Shown here: positions 2,702-39,109 of the stretch, piece by piece
Layout: the number at the start of each line of letters is the position of its first letter
Numbering within the stretch: position 1 is the first letter of the stretch
From: Akkermansia sp.
GTDB taxonomy: Bacteria; Verrucomicrobiota; Verrucomicrobiia; Verrucomicrobiales; Akkermansiaceae
Direction: 5' to 3'
Length of the DNA stretch: 43,236 nt
Assembly (NCBI GenBank): GCA_030535795.1
Contig: JAUNRE010000002.1
Location: forward strand, 30,363-73,598
Notes under the pieces: model-generated
Seen by the model: the letters and a program-made list of their open reading frames with translations, nothing else
What the model was told of the DNA's origin: nothing
The model's database searches: none
Program-made: the position numbers and the translations under genes

Positions 2702-3514
2702 TCAGGATAAAAGAAGAATGGCGATGGTGGAGATAGTATTGAATATCATGTGCAGCAGAATGCAGTACGTCAGCGAGCGCGTTTTTTCGTACAAAGCACA
2801 TTGAACGCAGGCAAAAACAAAGAGAGGCAGTGTTTGTATGAGAGAGACGTGTACGGCAGAGAATAAAAGGGATGAAGCCAGTGTTGCGGCGATGATGCCG
2901 CATCTCTGCCTCAGCACGTTGAATAGGAAGCCGCGGAAAGCGAACTCCTCCAAAATCGGGGCTGCGATGATAGAGCTGAAACAAAGGCCGGCCAGTGCGG
3001 GTGAATTCTTGTTTTGTGATAGCTCGGTGCTGACCTCCTGTAATTTGGGGCTTCCTGTGAGTTCTATCAGGTAATTGCAGAAGCCGCTGGCGTTGATCAC
3101 AAAGTTGAAGGCATAGATGCAGATGAGCCCGGCAAAGACGTAAAGCAGGTACCTGAGCGGCCGGTGCTGTGGCATGGGCAAAGTGATATAGCGCAGTGCA
3201 AACGGGCAGAAAATGATGATGTGGATGAATGTGCTCATCCAGATGTTGTCAGGGGTGTGTTCTGCCGGTGCTGAGAATTGGTTGGTCAGTGCGCTCGTCG
3301 CAAAAAATCCCATGAAGATGAGGACGAAGAGTTCATCGGCAATGCCGGGAAATGAGCTTCCGCTGAAACGACTGATGCGTGGCAGTCCGAGGCCGGTTAG
3401 CTGCTGACGGACGAAGCCGAAAATCCAGAGCAGGTAACACAGCAGCAGGCTACCGATTAAAAGTGAGCTGTTAACCCATTTATAGAGAGGCTGAGAAGAA
3501 AGATACTCAATCAT
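2702..3514 (-). CDS. CPBP-family intramembrane metalloprotease
   Basis: This 270-residue multi-pass membrane protein carries the CPBP (Abi/Rce1-like) signature. There is an EEFAFRG motif (EExxxR), followed by FSAVH and, in the last helix, HMIFN; these supply the glutamate and histidines of the intramembrane active site. Hydrophobic helices are visible at about 17-35, 60-75, 90-110, 120-140, 180-200 and 215-268. Family members are proven or presumed intramembrane proteases that process prenylated proteins or peptides, or give self-immunity to bacteriocins; the substrate here is unknown. The ATG overlaps the stop of the upstream phosphopantetheinyl transferase as ATGA, so the two are probably translationally coupled. 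I see no bacteriocin gene next to it. Confidence 0.87.
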   Translation of the reverse strand: MIEYLSSQPLYKWVNSSLLIGSLLLCYLLWIFGFVRQQLTGLGLPRISRFSGSSFPGIADELFVLIFMGFFATSALTNQFSAPAEHTPDNIWMSTFIHIIIFCPFALRYITLPMPQHRPLRYLLYVFAGLICIYAFNFVINASGFCNYLIELTGSPKLQEVSTELSQNKNSPALAGLCFSSIIAAPILEEFAFRGFLFNVLRQRCGIIAATLASSLLFSAVHVSLIQTLPLFVFACVQCALYEKTRSLTYCILLHMIFNTISTIAILLLS

Positions 3515-4149
3515 GACTGCATCTGATGTATCATATTAGCATGTTCGGCAGGAGCCTGCAAGCTTGAAGTGGAGAAAGCTACTGCCGCTCGGTATCCCGG
3601 CGCAGGAGCGAAGAGGTTGACTCGGATTGGCGTGTCTGCAAGCAGGCGAATGTGCCCGGTGTGCCAGAGGTAGGGGAATTGCTTTGCCTGCCAGATGGTG
3701 GCGCCTGCCTGCTTGACGAGTGCTTCGGTTGTGCACCAGCAGTCGAAGAACTCTTGAGTGTCGGCTCCTCGTTGTTGCCATGCGGCGAGTTGTTGCGGGC
3801 ACATGATACGTCTGGCGAGGCGTGGGGTTGCCTGAGCCGGGCGTATCTGCTGTACGTCGATGCCGATGGGGGCGTGGTGAAAGGCTATGCAGAGCAGGTC
3901 GCCGGAGTGGCTGATGTTGAAATGGAGCTGGCAGCCCGGTAAATAGGGCTTGCCGTGCTCGCCGGTGGCCAGGCGAAGCATCTGTGCATCGCAGCCGAGC
4001 CTCATGGCAAGCGCGCGCTTGAGGGTGCTTCGGGTCTTCAGGAAAGACTCGCCACGCCGGGCGTAGATGGCTCGTTCCTCGTCATTGAGCGTACTGACGG
4101 CTGAATCATCGGCCGGTAGCTCGCTCAGGTTGTAACAGAGGTAGGTCAT
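3511..4149 (-). CDS. 4'-phosphopantetheinyl transferase, Sfp type
   Basis: This enzyme would transfer phosphopantetheine from CoA to a serine on an acyl or peptidyl carrier protein. The 212-residue protein shows the Sfp-superfamily motifs FNISHSGDLLCIAF (about 77-90), GIDVQQI (96-102) and WCTTEALVKQAG (138-149). Compared with the usual GIDxE and W..KEA...K, residue 100 is Gln in place of the Mg-binding Glu, and the residue before the catalytic Glu142 is Thr, not Lys. Asp98, Glu142 and Lys146 are kept, so activity is plausible but not certain. It overlaps its neighbours on both sides as ATGA. No carrier protein, polyketide or peptide synthetase gene is in the window; it could serve fatty acid synthesis ACP. 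Confidence 0.88.
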   Translation of the reverse strand: MTYLCYNLSELPADDSAVSTLNDEERAIYARRGESFLKTRSTLKRALAMRLGCDAQMLRLATGEHGKPYLPGCQLHFNISHSGDLLCIAFHHAPIGIDVQQIRPAQATPRLARRIMCPQQLAAWQQRGADTQEFFDCWCTTEALVKQAGATIWQAKQFPYLWHTGHIRLLADTPIRVNLFAPAPGYRAAVAFSTSSLQAPAEHANMIHQMQS

Positions 4150-4640
4150 CAGAGTCGGTGGTGAGTCAGTGAATTGTCCTGTGTATTGTAGACGGCGAAC
4201 CCGGGAGCGCTGCGTACCCCTGCTATTTCGCCGGGGTTGGCCAGCAGTGTTTTGCCGCAGGTGTGCTGCTCGGCAAAGTGTGTGTGGCCGAAGAATACGG
4301 CATCGTAAAGCCCGATTTGAGCGGCCTGCGCAGCGATGTGCGGGTAATGTGTCAGATAGATGCGGCGCCCGGCCAGGTTGATGTCTGCGGTATCCCCATG
4401 GTGGCAGGTGTCATGAAACTGCTCCGCCAGTTGCATGAAGGTACGGCGGTCGAACTCGTTGTTGCCGAATACAAGGTCTATGCCGTGCGGCCATTCCTCG
4501 CGCAAGGTGCGAAAGGTGCTCAGTGTGGCCATGTCGCCCGTAAAGAGCAGGTGGGTGCATCCCATGCGCTCCGCCTCTGCCAGCGCGAGCAGCAGGTTGG
4601 TGGTGTTGTCGTGTATGTCTGACATCAGGGCGATGAGCAT
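4149..4640 (-). CDS. YfcE/MJ0936-family metallophosphoesterase
   Basis: This is a small cytosolic binuclear-metal phosphodiesterase of 163 residues, the normal length for the family. The ordered motifs are all present: SDIHDN (7-12), TGD, GNNE, THYP and FGHTH, followed by NPGE near the C-terminus; they supply the metal-binding Asp, Asn and His residues. Related enzymes hydrolyse model phosphodiesters or cyclic nucleotides, but the natural substrate is generally unknown. Its stop overlaps the next start (ATGA). It begins 21 bases after the stop of the coiled-coil membrane protein. That short spacer contains an eight-G run on the plus strand (4653-4660), an unusual homopolymer in this window. 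Confidence 0.88.
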   Translation of the reverse strand: MLIALMSDIHDNTTNLLLALAEAERMGCTHLLFTGDMATLSTFRTLREEWPHGIDLVFGNNEFDRRTFMQLAEQFHDTCHHGDTADINLAGRRIYLTHYPHIAAQAAQIGLYDAVFFGHTHFAEQHTCGKTLLANPGEIAGVRSAPGFAVYNTQDNSLTHHRL

Positions 4641-4661: not shown

Positions 4662-6803
4662 TTATGGACGAGTGGCGGTGAACACAGGTGAGAAGATAGC
4701 AGGCGATTCCGGGGCTTCACCGGCTTTGGTGGCGATGATGCCGCCTTCTGTTGAGAGGTACCAGATAGCGGTATCCGGGGCGAGATTGCGGAAGATGGCG
4801 GCTTGTCCCTTTTCATTGATGTAGCCGCTGAAGCTGGCTCCCACTTTGACAAGCGAGCCGAAGTTCTGCTTGATTTCCTTCGTGTAATCTGCGCCACTGT
4901 GGGTACGGAACCAGTTGTCGAAGTCCTGCTCGGCCGCACTCAGCTGCGGTGATTTGCCCAGCCAGCATCCGGCACGGAGCTCGATGCCGTGTTTTTCTAC
5001 CAGTTGCTTGAAGGAGGCTGCGTGCTTGCGCAGGGTGGGGCTGTAGCTGATGCCGGTGAGCAGGGGGTGTTTGTGCTCGCTGATGAGTTGCAGCAGACGG
5101 TGGTAAATGAAAGCCGTGGCGAGTGCCGGGCAGTTGCGGTGCCTGAAGTTCAGTACCGTTGTCAGCAGAGCCGGAAGATTCCTGTCGCGGAAGAAGGTGG
5201 GCTTATCGATGTTGATGGCTTTTTTGAGCGGTCGGGTGTCGATGGTTCGCTTCCAGACGTTGGCTGCGTCATCCCAGTAAACATCGCGATTGCCGGTGCT
5301 GAAGCCGGGGTCCAGATCGGAGCGCCTGATGTGAACCCGCTTGCTGGCATCGATAGTGGGTTCCTGTTCTGTGTAGCACACACGGCCGTCTGCGTGGGTG
5401 ATTTCATACAGGCAGACTTGTAACGAGGGCGCGGTGAAGATATCCTCCATCAGGTGCACCTGAGTTTGCGTGGCCGGATAGGCCGCCGTAAAGGTGGGGC
5501 CGTTTTTCAGCAGTGTGTCGATGGCGGCTTTCGTTTCGTTGTCATCAATTTTGCGCTCAGGATCCTGGATGAGGCTGCGTACGTTTTCTTCCGCCGGCAG
5601 CTTGTCGCGTATCTTCATGAGCGCTATGGCCGGGGTGTAGTGCCGGGGGGTGTAGTTTTGCAGTGTTTCGCGGAAGCGGTCGTAGGTACGCTGGTGCCGC
5701 AGGCGCTGCAAAAGATCCTTGTAGGCGTCGATTTCTGCCTGACAGGTGCGGATGAATGCCAGACGCTCCTCGGCCGAGGAGGTAAATGAGGCATCTAACT
5801 TATAACTCTTCGGGGCGTCTCGGAACAGACGCAGGCGCCCACGGGCTTCAGCTCGCAGCACTACCAGCGCGTCTGTATCTTCCGCCGGGTTGCCGGTGTA
5901 GGTCGGAAGCGGCGAGAGCGGGGTGAGCAGTTGGCGCACGAGAAGTGATTTTTGGTACTCCAACGCGGCTTTTTCTTTTTCGCAGAGTTTGTTCCAGCGG
6001 TTGGTGAGGCTGCTGAAATCCGCCGGCATGGCTTCGAGCTCACGCTCAATTTCCGCGCGGAGCGACAGGCGCATGTCCGAGACGCTGCCGTGTCCGGCTT
6101 CGATGCGGGAAATGTGCTTTTCAAGCCGCTTGCGTCTGTTCTCCATGTCTGTAAGCCAGCGATTGGCCTGATGTATTGTGTTTTCCAGCTCGGAGCACAA
6201 TAGTCTGTTAAATGGAGTATCGGCTACCGATGCGATGTTCTGCGCGCGCTCCCAGGCTTTTGCTTGCAGGGATTGCCTTAAATCCGATTCCAAATCAGCG
6301 GCGCGTTTGTAGCACAGCATGCCGATGCCCGCGATGAGGGCCACTGCTCCTAAAATGCCCCCGGTGCGAATCCCTCGGCGGCGGACACGTCCCAGACCGC
6401 GGCGACGCAGTTCTTTTTGCAGGCTGGTGTTATATGCTTTCAGAGCCGGGCTTTCTGATTGTCCTGCTGCCTTGAGTTTGCGGAGCGCCTCCTGTATTCT
6501 GGAGCGCAAATCGCTCAGTCGCTCCGTGCTTCTGGTGGAAAGGCTGGGCTCCGGGTACAAATCCATGATGTTCAGAAGCGTTTCGCAAGCTTCCGTTGCT
6601 TCTCGTTTTTTGCGCTGAGCGGCTGTTTCGGTTGCACGCAGCGGCAGGCCGTCCTCCAGGCGTTGGAGTTCGTTCTTGGCCTCTTCGTCATCGGGCTTTT
6701 CTTCCAGGCGCTGTAAGAGCAGATGTCGGCAAGCTTTGAGATTTCCCGCAATGGCGTATCGGCGCAGCGTCCTTTGGTATGATTGGTCGTTTTTGCGTGC
6801 CAT
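4662..6803 (-). CDS. Single-pass coiled-coil membrane protein, third component of the GTPase/GAP1 cassette
   Basis: I do not recognise a named family for this 713-residue protein. Residues 1-130 are charged and helical, with repeated Arg/Glu/Leu stretches that suggest a coiled coil or helical repeats. A basic patch (about 132-146) leads into one hydrophobic segment at 147-165, then a long helical region up to about 420. The C-terminal 270 residues look globular and contain several Cys and aromatic residues. The basic patch before the helix suggests that the N-terminal 140 residues face the cytosol. The ATG at 6803 overlaps the stop of the GAP1 gene as ATGA, and I prefer it over an upstream in-frame start that would lie inside that gene. 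Tight coupling suggests that it works with GAP1 and the GTPase. Confidence 0.7.
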   Translation of the reverse strand: MARKNDQSYQRTLRRYAIAGNLKACRHLLLQRLEEKPDDEEAKNELQRLEDGLPLRATETAAQRKKREATEACETLLNIMDLYPEPSLSTRSTERLSDLRSRIQEALRKLKAAGQSESPALKAYNTSLQKELRRRGLGRVRRRGIRTGGILGAVALIAGIGMLCYKRAADLESDLRQSLQAKAWERAQNIASVADTPFNRLLCSELENTIHQANRWLTDMENRRKRLEKHISRIEAGHGSVSDMRLSLRAEIERELEAMPADFSSLTNRWNKLCEKEKAALEYQKSLLVRQLLTPLSPLPTYTGNPAEDTDALVVLRAEARGRLRLFRDAPKSYKLDASFTSSAEERLAFIRTCQAEIDAYKDLLQRLRHQRTYDRFRETLQNYTPRHYTPAIALMKIRDKLPAEENVRSLIQDPERKIDDNETKAAIDTLLKNGPTFTAAYPATQTQVHLMEDIFTAPSLQVCLYEITHADGRVCYTEQEPTIDASKRVHIRRSDLDPGFSTGNRDVYWDDAANVWKRTIDTRPLKKAINIDKPTFFRDRNLPALLTTVLNFRHRNCPALATAFIYHRLLQLISEHKHPLLTGISYSPTLRKHAASFKQLVEKHGIELRAGCWLGKSPQLSAAEQDFDNWFRTHSGADYTKEIKQNFGSLVKVGASFSGYINEKGQAAIFRNLAPDTAIWYLSTEGGIIATKAGEAPESPAIFSPVFTATRP

Positions 6804-9622
6804 CAGGGAGTGGGTGTTTGTAAGATAAAGTACCAAGTGAGTTCGCTGTCCGGGCCGAGGCTGACGCGCTCCAGTTTTAATTGCAGGTTGACGGCGGAAT
6901 CAACGGTCTGTTTCGCGTAAGCGGCCTCGTAGGCTCGGGTGACACTGCGGGTAAGAAGCTCGCAGATGCGCAGGCGCATAATCCGGCGGATATTGCTTTC
7001 CTTGAGCGTGCGGGTGATTCGATTACGCGCTTGGTTGTGGGTGGCGCCGCGTTTGTTGATTTCATCATCCGTCAGCTCTAAGCCCAGGTCTGTTCCCAGG
7101 ATGAGCGGCAGTCGGGAAACGAAGCGTTTGTCGGTGTGCAGGCTGTAGAAGCGATCCACCACGGCATTAAATTCCTTACGCGTTTTTCCTTTGTGTTTTT
7201 CATCTGCTACGCTATAGAGTGCAGCAATGCTGTAGCGAGGGTCGCCGTTGGGGACTTCGCCGCAGCAGGAGCTATTGGCCACCTGTAGGAAGGTTTGCAG
7301 CACCGGCGCAGCAAAGGAATACCGGCGGTTTATGGAGCAAGCCCATGAGTTGATACTATCACTGTCGGTGGTGATACGCTTGTGATTCCAACTGTAGGGA
7401 ATGGCCTGTTTTGCATCCGGTTGCAGGGCTATAATCTGATTTTTACCCGTGAAATTCGGCAGAACGATGTGCAGTGGCGGATTGAGTGTCACCGGGACTT
7501 CTGTGTTGAGGTTGCTGAAGTCGTTGTGTTTCTGCAAGTCGAGTTTGCCGGCTGGCGCATTGGGTTCCGGCTTGCCGAGTGTGAGGCGATCCGGTGTAAT
7601 CGTCAGCTGGGAGGGAGTGGCTTTGGCCGGAGCTTTAGAGAGGATTCCCACTACCGGGATTTCCAGAGACGGAATCAGCAGGTAAGTTTGGCGACGGGAG
7701 TTGTCGATGTGGCGAAGTTTGACAGCCGTTGGTACTCCGTTGCTGCTGAGGGCGGTGAGTATGCCGTCTTGGGAAAGTGTCATACGCACCGGTGCGGCGG
7801 TGCCTTCTGCCCGGATGAGCCAGGTGTTGGCATTGTCGCCGGGGGTGATGCTGAGTTTCTGCCCGTGCTTTACAACCGTGGGCGGGATGAGTGCTGTGGT
7901 GTTGGAGCCTATGGCGATGGCTTCATATTCACAGTTTGTCAGCTTCACTTCTTCACCGGAGAAAAGTTTACGCAACCCTGCCGGAAGTTGGCGGCCAACG
8001 GTGACGAGTTCGGGCACCAGAGCATCCGTTATGTCCTGTTCCGGAGTCTGCTGTGTCGGCTCCGGGGTGGCGTCAACCTTCGGCTCCGGTTCAGGTGTCA
8101 CGACCGCAGGTGTGGGGGTGACGGGCTCCTCTCCTATGTCCGTTGTTGTTACGCTGTTTTTATCAAGCACGTCGGCCATGTAGGGGTAGAACTTTTCCTC
8201 CTGAAGTAGCGGCTTGATGAAAGACCATTGGCTGAGCAAATGCAGCCATCCTTGGAATTCTGTGTTGCTGGTGTTGCTCTGCCACTCTTCAAGCGGGCGG
8301 TCGTGTATCGCTTCATTCAGGTAGAGCCGGCAAAGTCCATCCGGTGAAATATCCAAAGCCTCAGCACATTCGATGAGGCGGCTCATATTGCTCGGGTGTC
8401 CGTGCGCATCCGTGGAGGCGCATCGCAGCAACTGTACACATTCTCGCAGCAGTTCGCGTTTTCTGATGGGCTTCTCAGTGGGTGGCAAGGCTCGCAGGTG
8501 TGACTCAAGCTGGTCAAGCTTTCGTGCTGTCGAGTTGGGGGAATAGGGGGCTGACGCCAGCTCCGAAAGTAGCTGAATATCCTCCTGCTCGTTGATTTTC
8601 GTAATGATTTGCCCGGTAATTTCACCGGCATCATCAATGAATATCCCCGAAACGAGTGAGGATGCACACCAGATAATACCGAGACCGCCCAGAACAAAGG
8701 CAAGGCGCACCCACTTCTTGGGCTTAGGTAGGATGTTGAACACGTCCTCATCAGGCGTTTCCGTATATTTGTATGGAATGGCCGGTGCAGAAGTGTGCGT
8801 GGGAGGTGGGGCGAAAGCAATGGGCTGATGATGCGTGTTGACGCCGAGAGGTGCAGAAACAGGGACGGTATCGTTTTCCTGCGTGATGACCAGTTCATCA
8901 TTAATTGTCAGGATGGTAGCCGCGCGGGCTATGGCGTCTTTTTCTATTTTGCTGCCGGGAGTGGTGAAGATTCGTGTGAACTCCTGGTGCGTATCCTGCT
9001 CGCTTCCGTGTGTCGTAAAGGTCTTACCCCATCCTCTGGAGGATGTGAGCCAATCACTCTCATGGCAGAGTTTCAAGATGTCCTCCGTAGAGGTGCCGCG
9101 CGGTACTGTGATGATGCATTCGCGGTCGTAGGGGTATACAAAAAATGCTTTTGCATTGCCTTTGTGACCGGAAAGCTGCTTCCAAGTGGGTTGTACAGAG
9201 GCATCCGGCAGTGCAGCCGCCGTCAGTCGGGGCTCTGTTTCGACATCCTCGTTGTCTGCATCCCAGACGCCGATTTTTCCCAATGCAACAATGACGCCGG
9301 CCGGGGTGGGACGAGAGGCGTTGCGTCGCAGGGCTTGCACTTCATCTTCCGTCAGGGCTAACAAGCGGGTGGTATAGCCATTGTCTGCGGTGTGGTAGTG
9401 CGTGCAGCTCAGAATGTGGAATGAGGTGGCCGCGCATATCACCTGGCGGTAGTTGAAGGAGGGTTCACCCTGTTGTGTCGGGCGAGAGCCGGGGTGCGGG
9501 CGGCTGATGGCCGAGAGCTCCTGCTCCAGTGCCTGAGGGATGCTATTACAGAGGATGCGCCGCTCCGCAACCCGGGATTGTCCGGGAAGTAGAGGGCCGC
9601 TGAAAATGCATTGGTAAGACAT
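6803..9622 (-). CDS. GAP1-N2-like GTPase-associated membrane protein
   Basis: This 939-residue protein begins with a domain that matches my knowledge of the GAP1-N2 (GTPase-associated protein 1) type found in Planctomycetes and Verrucomicrobia. Its marks are IFSGPLLPG near residues 6-14, HILSCTHYHTADNGYTTRLLAL at 69-90 (family form: Tyr-Thr-x-Arg followed by a conserved leader into an LxxxE segment), a WKQLSGHKGNA segment at 147-157, and RGWGKTFTTH at 196-205. A Pro-rich linker (about 250-290) precedes one transmembrane segment at 304-328. A second Pro/Thr linker lies near 480-510, followed by a C-terminal region that I cannot place. Known GAP1 proteins are encoded beside double-GTPase (DO-GTPase) genes in predicted NTP-dependent conflict systems. 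Here the GTPase gene ends 14 bases upstream, which supports the assignment. The biochemical function is unknown. Confidence 0.68.
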   Translation of the reverse strand: MSYQCIFSGPLLPGQSRVAERRILCNSIPQALEQELSAISRPHPGSRPTQQGEPSFNYRQVICAATSFHILSCTHYHTADNGYTTRLLALTEDEVQALRRNASRPTPAGVIVALGKIGVWDADNEDVETEPRLTAAALPDASVQPTWKQLSGHKGNAKAFFVYPYDRECIITVPRGTSTEDILKLCHESDWLTSSRGWGKTFTTHGSEQDTHQEFTRIFTTPGSKIEKDAIARAATILTINDELVITQENDTVPVSAPLGVNTHHQPIAFAPPPTHTSAPAIPYKYTETPDEDVFNILPKPKKWVRLAFVLGGLGIIWCASSLVSGIFIDDAGEITGQIITKINEQEDIQLLSELASAPYSPNSTARKLDQLESHLRALPPTEKPIRKRELLRECVQLLRCASTDAHGHPSNMSRLIECAEALDISPDGLCRLYLNEAIHDRPLEEWQSNTSNTEFQGWLHLLSQWSFIKPLLQEEKFYPYMADVLDKNSVTTTDIGEEPVTPTPAVVTPEPEPKVDATPEPTQQTPEQDITDALVPELVTVGRQLPAGLRKLFSGEEVKLTNCEYEAIAIGSNTTALIPPTVVKHGQKLSITPGDNANTWLIRAEGTAAPVRMTLSQDGILTALSSNGVPTAVKLRHIDNSRRQTYLLIPSLEIPVVGILSKAPAKATPSQLTITPDRLTLGKPEPNAPAGKLDLQKHNDFSNLNTEVPVTLNPPLHIVLPNFTGKNQIIALQPDAKQAIPYSWNHKRITTDSDSINSWACSINRRYSFAAPVLQTFLQVANSSCCGEVPNGDPRYSIAALYSVADEKHKGKTRKEFNAVVDRFYSLHTDKRFVSRLPLILGTDLGLELTDDEINKRGATHNQARNRITRTLKESNIRRIMRLRICELLTRSVTRAYEAAYAKQTVDSAVNLQLKLERVSLGPDSELTWYFILQTPTP

Positions 9623-9636
9623 GATCGGGAGCTTAA

Positions 9637-11367
9637 TCAGCTGTTAGTGCCGGGGAAAAGTGAGGGCTCAAGGCTGCTGAGAGCCCATAAGAGCGGGTCG
9701 GTGACTCGGAAGGGATTGAGGCTGCCGGAAGCGGGGCCCATGACGACGTCTCCTGTTTCTTCATCAGTGAACTCCACGGGGGCGGCACCCATAGCGGAGG
9801 CGGCAAAGTAGCACACGTTGTCAGACACAGCCTCGGCGTTGGTGCAGATGTTGGGGCTGATGCGGAAGAGAAGTTCGCGCAGGCGATTGGAGTTTGCGAT
9901 GATGTTTTCCTGCTTGAGTTGTCCGTTTCTCACCAGTGGGAGCAGGGGTTCAGCCCCCAGCAGGCTGCGCCAGGCGTCGCTCTTGCCCAGAATGATTGCC
10001 AGCGGCGTGTTGACGCGTTGTCCCGGCTTGAGGTTGAGGGCGGAGCGCAGGCGGTGTTCCATGTCGGCCAGCAGACGAGCCTGGCGCCCCGGCGGGGTGA
10101 GGCAATTTCGCAGTTGCGGGTCATCTTCATTCTTCAGAAGAGCTCGGAACTCCGGATTTGTTGTCGGGTCAAACAGGAAAAAGAGAGCATCGGCAACTTT
10201 GAGGTGGTTGAGGGAGGAATCCACCCCTTGCGCCTCGCTCCCGTCTCGGTTGTTGTAGAAGACAATCGAGTGTGCCCCTGATCCTTTGCTGAGGGTATAG
10301 ATAAAGGGGCGCGGCATGTTGATGTAGGCGCCATCTTTCCAAACTTTGCGGTAGAGGCTGTTGCTGAGGTGCGTCTTACCGAGATGTGCCGCCTGGGGTG
10401 AGTCCGCCGTGAACACGCGCATACGCATGTCGTTGAGCGGGGCGTTGGACGTGGGGTCGGCATCTCGGAAGGGGATTCCGAAGTCGCGGGGCATGGTACG
10501 CTCCAGCTCATGCACCAGTGATGAGAGGTAATACGACCTGCCGGCGGACGGTACGCCGACGAGGGAGATGATATGCTGGTTAATTTGCCCGAAATAGGGC
10601 GGCAGCTTGTGGTGGCAGTAGGGGCAGGCTCGCTCATGGCAGCGGGAGCCGCGGCTGTCGGTGGCATAGTCTGCCTTGGTGATGACTTCGGGGGCAAAGC
10701 GTTGCATGGCATCCGGCCCCAGGCGTTCATCACCGCAGAGCGAGGGATGCGTGGCAATGAAAAGGGCTTCCTCTTTGATGAATGTAGCCCTGCAGGAGGG
10801 GCATCGGTATTTTCCCTTGGGGGTGGAGCCTTGCATGTGGGCTCGCTGTACGGCACCTTCCATGCGTGATACGAAATCGGCTACGCTGAGGATATCTGAC
10901 AAGCGAAAGGCCTGGTGTCCCAGGCCTTCGAAGGCCGCAAGCGCTGTGTTAGATGCGGCTTCGGGGCAGCGAGGCAAATCAAGCAGCGCATGTGCCGAAC
11001 TCCATGCTCGCGTTTCGGGGGTGTAGATGTACCATACGCGTGGGCGATAGGCTGCAAAGTCCGGTCTGTTTTCCTCGCTGCCGTACCAACAGATAAAACA
11101 TCCGCCGGCCAGAACGAAAAGGTGGGTGCTGTCGGGCAGAATGTTGTGGTCGTGAGATTGTGCATGCCCATCAAGGGAGTATGATTCCAGTGAGGAATGC
11201 GGGAAGAAGCGGCATTTGCCGTCTCGCTGGGCGAAGACACCTCCGTTATCGGCGGCCATCGTCACTCGGAATGTGCTCTTGGGATTCTTGCCGATAGTCA
11301 TAAAGCTGCCATCCGACACACGTAATTTTCCTGTCAGGCAATCGAAGATGTAGAGCTGATAATTCAT
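9637..11367 (-). CDS. FHA-like / zinc-ribbon / TRAFAC (DO-GTPase2-like) GTPase with altered P-loop
   Basis: This 576-residue protein has three visible parts. Residues 1-97 look like a divergent forkhead-associated fold: a run of short beta strands with TIGKNP, a Ser-rich turn and a late strand with LFVLAGGCFICW. Residues 188-255 hold two zinc-knuckle pairs, CPSC (189-192) and CPYC (248-251), with further Cys/His nearby. Residues 265-570 resemble a TRAFAC GTPase of the double-GTPase 2 type: P-loop GVPSAGRS (271-278), a G3-like IVFYNNRDGS, LFFLFDP (395-401), and GKSD (461-464) as the base-recognition motif. The P-loop Lys is Arg and the G3 Asp appears to be Asn, so GTP hydrolysis may be weak or absent. 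I start at the ATG at 11367 because the frame upstream overlaps the NERD gene. A promoter lies just upstream. Confidence 0.72.
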   Translation of the reverse strand: MNYQLYIFDCLTGKLRVSDGSFMTIGKNPKSTFRVTMAADNGGVFAQRDGKCRFFPHSSLESYSLDGHAQSHDHNILPDSTHLFVLAGGCFICWYGSEENRPDFAAYRPRVWYIYTPETRAWSSAHALLDLPRCPEAASNTALAAFEGLGHQAFRLSDILSVADFVSRMEGAVQRAHMQGSTPKGKYRCPSCRATFIKEEALFIATHPSLCGDERLGPDAMQRFAPEVITKADYATDSRGSRCHERACPYCHHKLPPYFGQINQHIISLVGVPSAGRSYYLSSLVHELERTMPRDFGIPFRDADPTSNAPLNDMRMRVFTADSPQAAHLGKTHLSNSLYRKVWKDGAYINMPRPFIYTLSKGSGAHSIVFYNNRDGSEAQGVDSSLNHLKVADALFFLFDPTTNPEFRALLKNEDDPQLRNCLTPPGRQARLLADMEHRLRSALNLKPGQRVNTPLAIILGKSDAWRSLLGAEPLLPLVRNGQLKQENIIANSNRLRELLFRISPNICTNAEAVSDNVCYFAASAMGAAPVEFTDEETGDVVMGPASGSLNPFRVTDPLLWALSSLEPSLFPGTNS

Positions 11368-11397
11368 GAGCGGAGGCGAATTGCTTTGCGTACCATT

Positions 11398-11426
11398 CTT
11401 ATAGCATACACGGTTGCAGGCGTCAA
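11398..11426 (-). promoter_or_regulatory. Promoter for the GTPase/GAP1/coiled-coil cassette
   Basis: A sigma70-type pair, TTGACG (11421-11426) and TATAAG (11398-11403), has exactly 17 bases between the hexamers. The -35 overlaps the stop of the NERD-helicase gene. The expected transcript starts near 11391, giving a leader of about 24 bases with no Shine-Dalgarno site before the ATG at 11367. It suggests that the three-gene cassette can be expressed apart from the helicase. Confidence 0.6.
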
Positions 11427-13177
11427 GTAAATCTCGTGAAATCCCCGGGTGCTGATTCAGGAGCGGCGGAGCGTCTCTGTACTTCGCGCACAAAGGGTTC
11501 ACCCGTTAGGGTGGGGATGATGTAGAGCGCCACACGGGCTCGTGTGCAGGCTACATAGAAATCATTGAGGGAGAAAGCCGGTGTTTCTCCTAATGCGGGG
11601 ATATCTGTCAGGATGACGATGAGTGATTCAAGGCCTTTGAAGGCGCGAATGCTCTCTCCGAGCACATGTTCGTTCCGGTGCCAGCGTTCATGGCGGGCAA
11701 GGGATTGTTCCGGCTGTTCGCCTGGCTGAGCTCCTGCAACACCCGGTATGCGGCAAAGAGATGATTTTTCCGCTTTTTTCCACGGGGAGAGGACGACAAT
11801 ATCGCGTGCTGAATAGGTTTGTAACAACTCGCTGACAAGCTTTGACGCCTTGGCTGCGCGGGTGTCTACATTGTCAGACCCCGGTAGAATATGCACTTTC
11901 TGCGAGTTAAGGGGAAGAGCGTAGACTGTTGTGCCCGGTGGCAGGAGTGTGTGGCTATAGGTTGCTATATCCTTGCTGTTGCGGATATTGTGATGCAGGG
12001 TAATGCGAGTGGGCGGCTCCGGAACGGTGTTTTTATGGCCGTAAAGGGATTGGTTGGTATCGGTAAAAAGATAGAGCTTGCCATTGGGGCGCAGGGCTTG
12101 CTTGACAAGTGGCCACCAGGATGGGTGAAAATCCTGTGCTTCATCGACAAACACATAATCGAATTGCCAATTTTGGGTAATCTGTTCACGGAGCTGGCGC
12201 GTATAGGCAGCAACCTCACTTTCGGCTTTGCGCCAATCTATTGTCAAGTTGAGCGGTGTCAGCACATCATCGCAGAATCGAGCAAAGGTATTGGCGTAAA
12301 CAATGTCGGCTTGACGCAGTTTGTAAATGGATTTCTGTTCGCGCAGGTTATGGGCGAGATGCCGATTGAAACAGAGCAGCAGGATGCGCTCTTGTCCTTC
12401 GTTTTGCAGGATGCGTTTCCCGATTCGCTTGACTTCCGAGGCCGCCATCAGCGTCTTGCCGGAGCCGGCACAGCCGTCCACACGAATGCCCCCGGTGCTG
12501 TTTTCCAGCAGGTAGAGTGTGCGGGTCAGTGTTTCGCTCGCCATATCGAGCATTGAGGCATGGCTGCGCAGGTTTTTCTCATACTGAATCGTTTGAACGA
12601 GATAGGCTCGGATGGCCTCCATCTGCTCCCGGGCAAACGCATGCCCGTTGATAAAGAGTGACTCTATGCGTTGCTGTAGGTTGTCCTGCATTTCTTCGAT
12701 GCCGAATACCATCATGTCATCCAACCCTTGCGGCAGGCCGACATCATCTCGCCGCTGCTGCAGGAGGATGGCTAGGCTGCGAAACTCGACATGGTTCACA
12801 TCGAAGCGATAGCTAAGGCAATCCATGAGGCGTTTGGAGCCGAGATAGGCCTGTTGCACGGGCGATATGTAGGAGCCGAGGGGCTTTTCGCGCCCCTGTT
12901 CGTCAAGAAACATCCACTGGCCCGATTCAACCCAGAGGGTGCGAACATTTTTGACTTCTATCACCAACAGGCCTTTGTTCGGAACCAGTACGATGAAGTC
13001 CGTTTCGTAATTGGCGTATTGTTTCCGGTTGTGTTGGAAGAAATAGCGCCATAAATCGTGGATGACAATCCAATCATCCGGTAGGTTATCACGCAGAAAC
13101 TCGTAGACAATACGTTCTCCCACCACACCGGAGTTGGGGCTTTGATTTGTGAAACAAGCGGGGAACATGGAGGCCAT
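11423..13177 (-). CDS. NERD nuclease-domain / UvrD-like superfamily 1 helicase fusion
   Basis: This 584-residue protein combines an N-terminal NERD nuclease-related domain with a superfamily 1 helicase. In the NERD part I see GERIVYEFL (20-28), ETDFIV (58-63) and IEVKN (73-77), matching the E...D...ExK pattern of restriction-like nucleases. In the helicase part are Walker A GCAGSGKT (235-242), FVDEAQDF (343-350), HHNIRN (395-400), a motif V-like RAFKGLESLIVIL and motif VI YVACTRARVALY. NERD-helicase fusions are often found in defence neighbourhoods and on mobile elements, but some are housekeeping. It sits 20 bases after hrpA and directly before the GTPase/GAP1 cassette. A second in-frame ATG three codons in is an alternative start. 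Confidence 0.85.
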   Translation of the reverse strand: MASMFPACFTNQSPNSGVVGERIVYEFLRDNLPDDWIVIHDLWRYFFQHNRKQYANYETDFIVLVPNKGLLVIEVKNVRTLWVESGQWMFLDEQGREKPLGSYISPVQQAYLGSKRLMDCLSYRFDVNHVEFRSLAILLQQRRDDVGLPQGLDDMMVFGIEEMQDNLQQRIESLFINGHAFAREQMEAIRAYLVQTIQYEKNLRSHASMLDMASETLTRTLYLLENSTGGIRVDGCAGSGKTLMAASEVKRIGKRILQNEGQERILLLCFNRHLAHNLREQKSIYKLRQADIVYANTFARFCDDVLTPLNLTIDWRKAESEVAAYTRQLREQITQNWQFDYVFVDEAQDFHPSWWPLVKQALRPNGKLYLFTDTNQSLYGHKNTVPEPPTRITLHHNIRNSKDIATYSHTLLPPGTTVYALPLNSQKVHILPGSDNVDTRAAKASKLVSELLQTYSARDIVVLSPWKKAEKSSLCRIPGVAGAQPGEQPEQSLARHERWHRNEHVLGESIRAFKGLESLIVILTDIPALGETPAFSLNDFYVACTRARVALYIIPTLTGEPFVREVQRRSAAPESAPGDFTRFT

Positions 13178-36592: not shown

Positions 36593-37777
36593 TCAGGCCA
36601 AGGTGGCGCGGTGGGCATTGTGAATCAGCTCCGCTTCCTGCCTCACTCGCACCTGTAGGTCGGCCAATGCATTCATGTAGTAAATGTAGGCATCAAACGG
36701 TGAGGGGTAGGGGGTGAACCCGTTGCTCTTTTCCATGTAGTGGAAATGGTCTGCGCTTTGCAGCTTGCGCCACACATGAATCATATCGCGATCCTCACTG
36801 GCTTTCACCTGTGTTTCGAGTGCATAGATTTTTTTGATGGCTTCCTGCTGCATGACATTGCCGTTCCAATGTGTTGTTGTACCGAAGGTAGAGCAGCTCA
36901 CAGGCTCGGGAACATCCAGCGTGCCGGTGGAGTCGAAGGTGCGGACGCACTCTGTGGGTGTCATGAAATTGTTGCCCGCAAAGAGGGTGGCCATAATCAT
37001 GCTGCGCCAGAATTCGAACACCCCGGTCGTGTCGGGCTGGCGCTCACCAAGCGTCTCGTAGTCCATGGAGATATTGACTACCTGACCGTGCTGCTGCCCG
37101 AGCCAGTCGGCATAGGTGTAGGGCGAAAGCGGGTACTCGCTCCAGCTGGGGTCAACTCGGCGGTTGGCCAGGTCGTTAGAGAGATGGCGATGGCGCACCA
37201 GTGTCTTTGTTTTGGCAATGAGCGGGGCGCATTGCAGCTCGTTGGGGTGCAGGTTGCGCATCATGCGGCTGCTGCCATCGGCCATAATTCCTTCAAAGCC
37301 CATGTCATATGCCTGCGCCGCAATGGCGTTGGAGTACAGCATGCCGGTATTCCACAGCACTTTGGGAGTCTGGCCGAAGAGTTCTTCGATGAGGGCGATG
37401 TGTTCATTGACCTGTTCTGCAAACTCGCCGGTGGAATACAGCGATGCCAGAGAGGCATAATAAGGCATGGCCAGGAACTCCACACACCCGGTGTCTGCCA
37501 GCTCGCGGAAGGAGGCGATGAGGTCGGGGCGGTGGTATTTAGCCTGCTCCAGAATCACGCCGGATATGGCCAACGAGAACTTGAACTTGCCGTCCGAAAG
37601 CTCGATGAGCTGTCTCATGAGCCTGTTGGCGGGCAGGTAACACCGCTCGGCCACCTCACTGAGTACCAGGCCGTTCATTCGATCATCTTCGTAGAACGCA
37701 TGCTCGCCGATCTTAAAGAAGTCGTAGGGTATCAGTCGGTTGGGCTGATGCGCATGAAATGTAAGTGAGATATTCAT
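36593..37777 (-). CDS. GH57 alpha-amylase-like protein lacking the catalytic nucleophile
   Basis: The 394-residue protein belongs to glycoside hydrolase family 57: HAHQP at 8-12 is the first conserved region, and MDYETLGE (238-245) carries the acid/base Asp239. The third region reads VLWNTGMLYSN (140-150), where active alpha-amylases of this type have NTE. The nucleophile Glu is therefore Gly145. Family surveys describe such alpha-amylase-like members in gut bacteria, often beside a glycogen synthase, as here (33 bases downstream of one). It may bind glycogen or have a changed activity, not hydrolyse it in the usual way. No signal peptide is present, so it is cytosolic. A terminator follows. 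Confidence 0.9.
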   Translation of the reverse strand: MNISLTFHAHQPNRLIPYDFFKIGEHAFYEDDRMNGLVLSEVAERCYLPANRLMRQLIELSDGKFKFSLAISGVILEQAKYHRPDLIASFRELADTGCVEFLAMPYYASLASLYSTGEFAEQVNEHIALIEELFGQTPKVLWNTGMLYSNAIAAQAYDMGFEGIMADGSSRMMRNLHPNELQCAPLIAKTKTLVRHRHLSNDLANRRVDPSWSEYPLSPYTYADWLGQQHGQVVNISMDYETLGERQPDTTGVFEFWRSMIMATLFAGNNFMTPTECVRTFDSTGTLDVPEPVSCSTFGTTTHWNGNVMQQEAIKKIYALETQVKASEDRDMIHVWRKLQSADHFHYMEKSNGFTPYPSPFDAYIYYMNALADLQVRVRQEAELIHNAHRATLA

Positions 37778-37810: not shown

Positions 37811-39109
37811 TTACCAACCGAGCACATGGTGGTAGACTCGCAGCATTTTATCCGCGGCCGTGTCCCAGTTGGAGTTCTTAATGTCCTGAGCGCTCTGCTC
37901 GGCAACTTTCTTGTAAAGCTCTTCATCGGTGATGAGATCCACAATGTGCTTGGCCATCATGTTCACATCCCAGAAATCTGCTTTGAGTGCCCCCTTCATA
38001 ACCTCCGCTACACCACTCTGTTTGGAGATGACGGCAGGTATGTTGAACTGAGCTGCTTCCAGTGCTGATAAGCCGAACGGCTCGGATACCGAGGGCATGC
38101 AATACACATCGGTCATACTGAGTAGCTCATTCACTTTCTGCTTGTTGAGGAATCCGGTGAAGTGGAACTTGTCGCCCACGCCATGGAAGGCTCCTGTTTC
38201 GATAAGCTGGCGCAGTTTCTCGCCGGTGCCGGCCATCACGAAACGCACATTATCTGTCTGTTCCAGCACCTTGGCTGCAATCTCCAGGAAGAACTCCGGG
38301 CCTTTCTGCGCCGTGAGACGCCCAAGGAAGAGCACAAGCTTCTCGGGGAACTTCTTCTTGGTGTGGAAGACGTGCACAGGGTCTGCACCGTTGTGCACCG
38401 GGAAAATCTTGCCGGGGTCAATGCCGTAGTGGCCGGCTGCCACCGTGCCGGTGTACTTGGAAACGGGGATGACGGCGTCGGCCTGTTCCATGCCGTATTT
38501 CTCGATGTCGTATATCCAGCCTCGGGCATCCGCACCGGCTCGGTCAAACTGCGAGGCGTGCAGGTGGACGACAAGCGGCTTACCCGTGGCTTTCTTTACC
38601 TCCACACCGGCCAGATAGGTCATCCAGTCGTGCGCGTGCACCACATCGAAATCGTAGCGGCGAGCCATCACAGCGCATATCTTGGAGAACTCTATCACCT
38701 TGCGAGCCAAATCGCCGGCATACAAATCCTCCTTTCCGGTGAAGAGCGCTAAATCGGCTTTGTGCACCTTGCTGAACAACAGTTTACCTTCCTTGGTGAA
38801 GACAATGTTGCCCGGCGTCCCTTCTTCGCAGGCGTAGGGATCCAGATTCACGGGCGCCTTGCCCACTACGGTAAAGCTTTCGTATGTGTACCCTTCCTCA
38901 AGGGTCTCCATTTCCTGGTACTCCAGGTTGTTAATGCCCGTCAGCCCGAACCCTTCATAGGTCACACCGGGTTTTGCCTTGGGGACAATCACAGACAGGT
39001 CCACCTTCTTTGCCAGTGCCCTGGAAATGCCCATGCAGGCTACACCCAGGCCACCGTTGATCAGCGGCGGGAACTCCCATCCCAGCTTCAGCACTTTAAT
39101 TCTTCTCAT
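37811..39109 (-). CDS. glgA: Glycogen synthase-like glycosyltransferase (GT4/GT5 type)
   Basis: This 432-residue GT-B enzyme probably extends alpha-1,4-glucan chains. It starts with KVLKLGWEFPPLINGGLGVA, the Lys/Gly-rich donor loop (KxGGL equivalent INGGLG) of bacterial and eukaryote-like glycogen synthases. It continues with VVHAHDWMTYLAG, FLGRLTAQKGPEFFLE and the SEPFGLSALEAAQFNIPAV donor site. It is more like the GT4-type enzyme paired with GH57 in Bacteroides-like glycogen operons than like E. coli GlgA, so the donor (UDP- or ADP-glucose) is open. The mRNA leader is about 57 bases and holds a small GC hairpin (39146-39160); a GAGAG before the ATG may serve as ribosome site. Confidence 0.87.
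   Translation of the reverse strand: MRRIKVLKLGWEFPPLINGGLGVACMGISRALAKKVDLSVIVPKAKPGVTYEGFGLTGINNLEYQEMETLEEGYTYESFTVVGKAPVNLDPYACEEGTPGNIVFTKEGKLLFSKVHKADLALFTGKEDLYAGDLARKVIEFSKICAVMARRYDFDVVHAHDWMTYLAGVEVKKATGKPLVVHLHASQFDRAGADARGWIYDIEKYGMEQADAVIPVSKYTGTVAAGHYGIDPGKIFPVHNGADPVHVFHTKKKFPEKLVLFLGRLTAQKGPEFFLEIAAKVLEQTDNVRFVMAGTGEKLRQLIETGAFHGVGDKFHFTGFLNKQKVNELLSMTDVYCMPSVSEPFGLSALEAAQFNIPAVISKQSGVAEVMKGALKADFWDVNMMAKHIVDLITDEELYKKVAEQSAQDIKNSNWDTAADKMLRVYHHVLGW

Follow-up and report, generated by a model that had tools for sequence, protein, structure and literature searches.

We analyzed a stretch of 43,236 nucleotides from an Akkermansia sp. genome (contig JAUNRE010000002.1 of assembly GCA_030535795.1; hereafter, the window), in which three adjoining genes encode a GTPase (GTP), a GAP1-like protein (GAPL), and a coiled-coil protein (P4). 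We found that GTP, GAPL, and P4 constitute a true, old, and inherited module, which, judged from sequence, is clearly of the DO-GTPase2/GAP1-N2 kind of GTPase-centric system. To our mind the chances are about even that this module works as a GTPase switch in the inner membrane, sensing the envelope and, in relatives, controlling a proton-driven motor. The first-pass annotation of the window, made from the letters alone, had pointed to this real and little-studied module but set a wrong border by joining an upstream NERD-UvrD helicase to it, and read the whole as nucleic-acid defense.

Distribution and inheritance of the GTP-GAPL-P4 module

A profile search detected the GTPase in 74 of the 388 genomes of the phylum Verrucomicrobiota and in 43 of its 198 genera. 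Among 95 GTPase loci of the phylum, GAPL was present in 93 and P4 in 80, and most of the remaining loci were cut by contig ends. The GTPase tree broadly follows taxonomy: its 37 Akkermansia-type rows cluster together (100), and the sister group bears motor genes, which also occur in deeper lineages. Deep placements are unsure, as the tree was built with FastTree and has several long branches. Inheritance of the cassette is largely vertical and no copy of the GTPase was found on plasmids or phages; travel of the cassette to defense islands is not supported.

The window genome is 2.4 Mb in size, and its nearest named relatives are metagenome-assembled Akkermansia genomes from the ruminant gut. 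The gene order on the minus strand is hrpA, the NERD-UvrD helicase, GTP, GAPL, P4, a YfcE-like metallophosphoesterase gene (MPE), a 4'-phosphopantetheinyl transferase family gene (PPT), a CPBP protease gene, thiL, and dnaA (Table 1). P4 is followed by MPE and then PPT in most small-genome Akkermansia, and the cassette occupies a fixed site by MPE-PPT-thiL-dnaA in several species; none of the complete large-genome Akkermansia that we examined has it. The unit that is conserved comprises GTPase, GAP1, and P4 and is extended here by MPE and PPT, both of which lie outside the borders of the four-gene cassette drawn earlier. All four co-directional open reading frames of that cassette are present, and the first two intervals between them, of 55 and 14 bases, were given correctly, but the GAPL/P4 junction reads TGATG with a 1-base overlap, not ATGA.

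Table 1. Features of the locus in the window and the evidence for each.
Feature	Coordinates	Strand	Evidence and remarks
GTP (GTPase)	9637..11367	-	576 aa from its ATG; alignment A1, Pfam on homologues, motif survey
GAPL (GAP1-like)	6803..9622	-	939 aa; Pfam GAP1-N2 in homologues, model and fold match, rates
P4 (coiled-coil, unnamed)	4662..6803	-	713 aa; alignment A3, model, VIA match, adjoins GAPL across the phylum
MPE (YfcE-like metallophosphoesterase)	4149..4640	-	Pfam; P4-MPE neighborhoods
PPT (4'-phosphopantetheinyl transferase family), after MPE	3511..4149	-	Pfam; neighborhoods
Predicted sigma-70-like promoter of the GTPase operon, TTGACG-17-TATAAG	11398..11426	-	Conserved position in relatives
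NERD-UvrD helicase, judged outside the system	11423..13177	-	584 aa; Pfam, PADLOC; empty site in L096; absent at 95 loci

Besides the complete cassettes, P4 and MPE stay together in L122 and L124, although the GTPase and GAP1 genes are gone from the locus, and this arrangement suggests that P4 and MPE may be a functional pair. A larger P4 paralogue (877 to 892 aa) occurs in the window genome and in relatives without a GTPase or GAP1 (L052:149-2827, L053:5651-10462, and L054:3809-9006); in L053 and L054 its neighbor is a Ser/Thr protein kinase that has a transmembrane (TM) helix, so that P4 may have kinases as partners too.

Domain composition and topology of the three proteins

GTP comprises an FHA-like N terminus, a split zinc ribbon, and a DO-GTPase2-like TRAFAC GTPase domain. 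The window protein falls below the Pfam cutoff for DO-GTPase2 (E = 0.11), whereas 9 of the 11 members of alignment A1 match this family; homologues reach 27.5 to 27.6 bits for DO-GTPase2 (cutoff, 27) and 52 bits for FHA (cutoff, 20.7). Four cysteines of the putative zinc ribbon (C189, C192, C248, and C251) are invariant in the 11 sequences. Likewise, the window GAPL lies below the cutoffs for GAP1-N2 and GAP1-M, whereas homologues score 61 to 89 bits for the former (cutoff, 24) and 31 to 62 bits for the latter (cutoff, 24; L178, L176, and L226). A match to GAP1-C was not seen. The homologues that pass Pfam cutoffs for these four families were among L164, L166, L174, L176, L178, L226, and L260. 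It is through such homologues, and not through the window proteins, that the GTPase and GAP1-N2 identities proposed at first pass are borne out, and the proposed FHA-like and zinc-ribbon parts are supported as well.

GAPL consists of the GAP1-N2 domain (about residues 1 to 250), one TM helix near residues 303 to 325, and a very variable C-terminal half that is predicted to be periplasmic. A 465-aa protein at L055:248-5593, encoded after a 1,307-aa TM protein, resembles only the C-terminal part of GAPL, and this variable domain hence exists apart from GAP1-N2. The structural model of GAPL has a mean predicted local distance difference test (pLDDT) score of 69, with residues 50 to 245 mostly at 80 to 90 and a weak stretch near residues 121 to 140. 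Residues 1 to 255 of the model matched FLCN/FNIP2 complexes (Z = 7.8 and 7.4), Lst4 (7.1), TRAPPII (6.6), C9orf72:SMCR8 (6.4), DENND1B (6.1), and bacterial TagF (6.1; 208 residues). The VIA scores to many longin/DENN proteins (Z = 5.1 to 7.8) are below the guide value of 8, with PAS-fold hits alongside; we favor the longin/DENN assignment because many independent matched entries share one functional class. On this model, GAP1-N2 would be a longin/DENN-like GTPase regulator. Longin-domain GTPase-activating proteins act by an arginine finger (PMC8213707); a catalytic arginine was not located in GAPL.

P4 has a TPR-like cytoplasmic N terminus, one TM helix near residue 147, a long helical region, and a conserved C-terminal domain of no named family; the protein belongs to no Pfam family, and the first-pass annotation had likewise put no family name to it. 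Its model is helical (pLDDT, 86) and includes a YgdI/YgdR-like SH3 fold at residues 463 to 522 (VIA Z = 7.2, 50 residues, 2.0 Å). The Foldseek hits of P4 (dynein, spectrin, and similar proteins) were set aside as generic helices, and no whole-protein match was obtained. When the GTPase, GAPL, and P4 alignments were searched against the sequences of solved structures, nothing useful came up. The membrane anchoring proposed in the first-pass annotation is supported, and one TM helix is predicted in each of GAPL and P4. Basic residues flank both helices on the N-terminal side (PKPKKWVR in GAPL and RRRGLGRVRRRG in P4), which points to an N-in, C-out topology.

Motor genes linked to the module in relatives

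At about 26 loci, all of them outside the Akkermansia group, one MotA/TolQ/ExbB-like gene and two MotB/TolR-like genes extend the module. The taxa bearing them include Verrucomicrobiaceae (with Prosthecobacter and Brevifollis), Chthoniobacter, Opitutia, and others. The usual order is GTP-GAPL-P4-GYF-MotA-MotB1-MotB2 (L163, L164, L227, L231, L232, L237, L238, L246, L253, and others), and the motor genes have been shifted as a block or inverted in L174, L250, and L252. The linked MotA, which is preceded by a GYF-domain membrane protein, has three TM helices and matches PF01618 (E = 1.1e-9; 38.6 bits; cutoff, 22.9). MotB1 and MotB2 are single-TM proteins without a Pfam match and carry FFxFQDxIT and LDLLLDT, respectively, at the start of the TM helix; FQD and LLD are found in at least 90% of the 22 and 19 B subunits. 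The aspartate of these motifs appears to be placed like the TM aspartate of TolR/ExbD.

The window genome encodes four PF01618 proteins elsewhere, one of which is weakly like the linked MotA and none of which has MotB1/MotB2 neighbors. One MotA/ExbB-like gene of this genome (L187:9593-10351, C156) is followed by genes for large proteins whose TM helices lie close to the ends, and the site is flanked by kinase-like genes.

Proposed mechanism and the conflict-system alternative

On the predictions above, the module is made up of a soluble FHA/zinc-ribbon/GTPase protein and two single-TM, N-in/C-out proteins. In our proposal, the GTPase has two docking sites, namely, the longin/DENN-like GAP1-N2 domain in GAPL and the TPR-like N terminus in P4. 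The periplasmic parts of these two membrane proteins would sense either a ligand or the condition of the envelope and thereby determine the nucleotide state in which the GTPase is found. For loci with motor genes, we take the output to be a proton channel or motor built from one MotA/TolQ/ExbB-like and two MotB/TolR-like subunits. Akkermansia probably lost the motor, and its operon would have gained MPE and PPT, which by their position are candidate outputs in the window.

Several observations weigh against this proposal. Neither the window nor any Akkermansia-group locus carries the motor genes, and many other loci lack them as well, so they do not belong to the invariant core. The fold match of GAP1-N2, below Z = 8 and obtained with a model from 13 sequences, could reflect a common arrangement. 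Our literature search found no experiments on these proteins. Finally, the marked divergence of GAPL in its periplasmic half (mean identity of 44%, compared with 78% for thiL) would also fit a conflict system.

That the locus is a DO-GTPase2/GAP1-N2 conflict system acting against phages or other invaders, in the sense of Kaur et al. 2020, is possible, if on the whole unlikely. The variable part of GAP1 would then sense the invader, the GTPase would be a threshold switch, and the variable membrane partners would be effectors. The core families are indeed those of that study (PMC7159879), the downstream genes are changeable (MotA/MotB, GYF, MPE/PPT, and Sel1), and the defense system Zorya has an ion-motor output. 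However, the mostly vertical inheritance, the failure to find plasmid or phage copies, the fixed place by MPE-PPT-thiL-dnaA in several species, and a constitutive-type promoter speak against such a role, as does the outcome with PADLOC, where GTP and GAPL had no match beyond chance and P4 none that was useful.

The rates of divergence bear on both readings. Mean identities over 85 Akkermansia pairs, which include near-identical records and so are not independent, were 75% for GTP, 57% for the cytoplasmic part of GAPL, 54 and 52% for P4, 64% for MPE, and 57% for PPT. The cytoplasmic GTPase is conserved like a housekeeping gene, whereas the periplasm-facing parts drift fast, and the fast divergence of GAPL and P4 is what a conflict system would lead one to expect. 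The neighbors drift as fast, however, so that an arms race is not a forced reading; the notion that the cassette proteins are uniquely fast evolving was not borne out, with GTP (75%) close to thiL (78%) and with CPBP and PPT as variable as GAPL and P4. With 47%, the Rce1-like CPBP protease gene itself (2702-3514, located between PPT and thiL) ranks with the genes that diverge fastest.

The prediction of DO-GTPase/GAP1 systems was purely computational, and no experiments on them turned up in the open literature that we searched. With P4 as a constant third part, a regulator fold that is predicted, and a proton motor linked in relatives, the vague label of a conflict system becomes a testable machine.

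State of the GTPase in the window lineage

Among 124 GTPases of the family, the canonical P-loop GxxxxGK[ST] is found in 120, DxxG in 114, and xKxD in all. The window GTPase reads GVPSAGRS at the P-loop, with the Walker A lysine replaced by arginine, and NNRDG in place of DxxG, but keeps GKSD. The family motifs GKSYYL and DNAGE correspond to GRSYYL and NNRDG here; the Walker motifs with the Walker B glutamate thus hold for the family but not for the window copy. DxxG is also lacking, with the lysine kept, in the sister species G187 and the nearby L207, L216, and L097, and it is lacking in a second Akkermansia set (L109, L111, L113, and L114). In part of the genus, these motifs suggest, the switch chemistry is gone and the membrane proteins remain. 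Because both the Walker A lysine and DxxG are lost, the window GTPase is probably no longer a working switch, and in this lineage it would probably be a nucleotide-independent scaffold or be decaying.

A step further, the whole locus in the window genome might be a degenerating remnant without the function of a GTPase switch. The motif losses would agree with this, and so would the genome G002, which lacks the GTPase gene and keeps GAPL-P4-MPE-PPT, and the several species in which the C-terminal half of GAPL is missing. Nevertheless, the reading frames of the locus are all open and none is shortened, the GTPase operon retains its promoter, the GTPase itself retains xKxD, and identity to G187 is 75% for the GTPase compared with 50% for GAPL, which makes a mere remnant quite improbable. 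Akkermansia, with a putative sensor but no motor and with some lineages devoid of GTPase chemistry, offers natural mutants for comparison.

Promoter of the GTPase operon and the NERD-UvrD helicase

The NERD and UvrD domains of the helicase match Pfam (E = 1.1e-12 and 1.2e-13), in agreement with its first description as a NERD protein with a superfamily 1 helicase. Between this gene and GTP lies a predicted near-consensus sigma-70 promoter, whose -35 box overlaps the stop codon of the helicase. In 34 of 37 Akkermansiaceae loci, a promoter match of 9/12 or better is located 39 to 61 bases before the GTPase start; among 500 shuffles of the window region, 23 scored 9 or more, one of them 10. A conserved promoter that belongs to the cassette and follows the helicase gene counts against a four-gene unit.

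The comparison with relatives points the same way. In the sister species G187 (L096, the same sequence region as L191, JAFOZZ010000159.1), the order is GFO-hrpA-GTP-GAPL-P4-MPE-PPT-CPBP-thiL with no helicase, and the distance from hrpA to GTP is 90 bases. DNA homology between the window and G187 runs to 13214 on one side and resumes from 11408 on the other, leaving in the window an extra segment of about 1.8 kb that holds the helicase alone. The helicase assigned the role of nucleic-acid arm at first pass is hence an insertion, although no convincing pair of repeats was found to flank it. No NERD homologue stands beside the GTPase at any of the 95 Verrucomicrobiota loci; helicase and cassette occur apart, the very arrangement that the first-pass annotation had named as telling against its proposal. 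NERD homologues (E of 1e-30 or better) were found in only 4 of 145 genomes of the family, and none adjoins the cassette except the window's own gene. The window genome has a second NERD copy elsewhere.

Two other NERD helicases of the genus adjoin a restriction pair: at L058:6983-12241 the helicase is followed by a McrB-like EVE-AAA_5 protein and a LlaJI-type restriction enzyme, and L059:6609-11905 has the same two neighbors at 78 to 80% identity; these plausibly form a defense module of their own. The window helicase matches the PADLOC models C3a187 and RTasNERD-Hel (E = 2.7e-31 and 5.8e-30), but it stands alone, without an adjoining reverse transcriptase gene. It is a recent neighbor that does not belong to the three-gene switch, and probably an independent, defense-type gene that landed upstream. 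Despite the shared strand and the 55-base gap, joint action of helicase, GTPase, GAP1, and membrane protein as one four-gene cassette is hardly credible given the empty site, the 95 loci without it, the separate promoter, and the homologues located elsewhere with restriction genes. A helicase adjoining a GTPase need not make one defense system with it.

Another rearrangement was seen in G124 (L041), where the cassette directly follows homologues of window 36593-37777 and 37811-39109 (92 to 97% identical). The block corresponding to window 11423-36593 (about 25 kb, with hrpA) is hence located at another site in G124, and one border of the rearrangement is at the cassette.

Comparison with known systems

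The GAP1-N2 type of GTPase-centric system was defined by Kaur et al. 2020 (PMC7159879), who name verrucomicrobia and mention GYF-domain membrane partners for planctomycetes. Common to that type and the present module is a zinc-ribbon TRAFAC GTPase followed by a GAP1-N2 protein with a C-terminal TM helix. The module differs in its constant third membrane protein, P4, in the MotA/TolQ-like and two MotB/TolR-like genes of many loci, and in the FNIII component, for which no Pfam match (fn3) was obtained in members of alignments A2 and A3 or in GAPL and P4 of L164. MotA, ExbB, TolQ, longin, and roadblock are all unmentioned in the text of PMC7159879; the longin/DENN-like model of GAP1-N2 and the linked motor genes are two observations not in that paper, and we found no literature on DO-GTPase/GAP1 systems with motors.

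Zorya (ZorAB) shares a channel of the MotA/ExbB/TolQ family with a B subunit. However, the ZorA models match the linked MotA-like protein weakly (best E = 3.6e-6) and in the channel core only, this protein has about 300 aa compared with 461 to 1,063 aa for the ZorA models, and neither of the two B subunits tested matched ZorB. Identity with Zorya was ruled out on the weak ZorA match and the missing ZorB match, and no ZorA, ZorB, ZorC/ZorD, or ZorE gene occurs in the window.

In Myxococcus gliding, AglR works with AglQ and AglS, that is, one TolQ-like and two TolR-like subunits (PMC4488436). The MglA/MglB-AglRQS system, in which MglA is Ras-like, resembles the motor-bearing loci in its design, which combines a GTPase, a regulator domain (of the roadblock type in MglB and longin-like in GAPL), and a motor with one plus two subunits, the subunit count being all that was compared. 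It differs in that the GTPase belongs to another family, the regulator here is anchored in the membrane, and no common outer-membrane parts were seen. The likeness of GAPL to the longin/DENN regulators FLCN-FNIP2 and C9orf72-SMCR8 and to TagF lies in the predicted fold of residues 1 to 255 at Z below 8, with no sequence match to solved structures. We put forward, as a bolder and rather doubtful proposal, that Verrucomicrobiota possess a GTP-gated envelope motor in which P4 links a TolQR-like stator to the DO-GTPase that controls it, the GTPase being regulated in turn by a longin/DENN-type GAP1 anchored in the membrane. Such a machine would parallel MglA/MglB-AglRQS as an independent bacterial design, and the FLCN/C9orf72 class of GTPase regulators would have a bacterial relative in GAP1.

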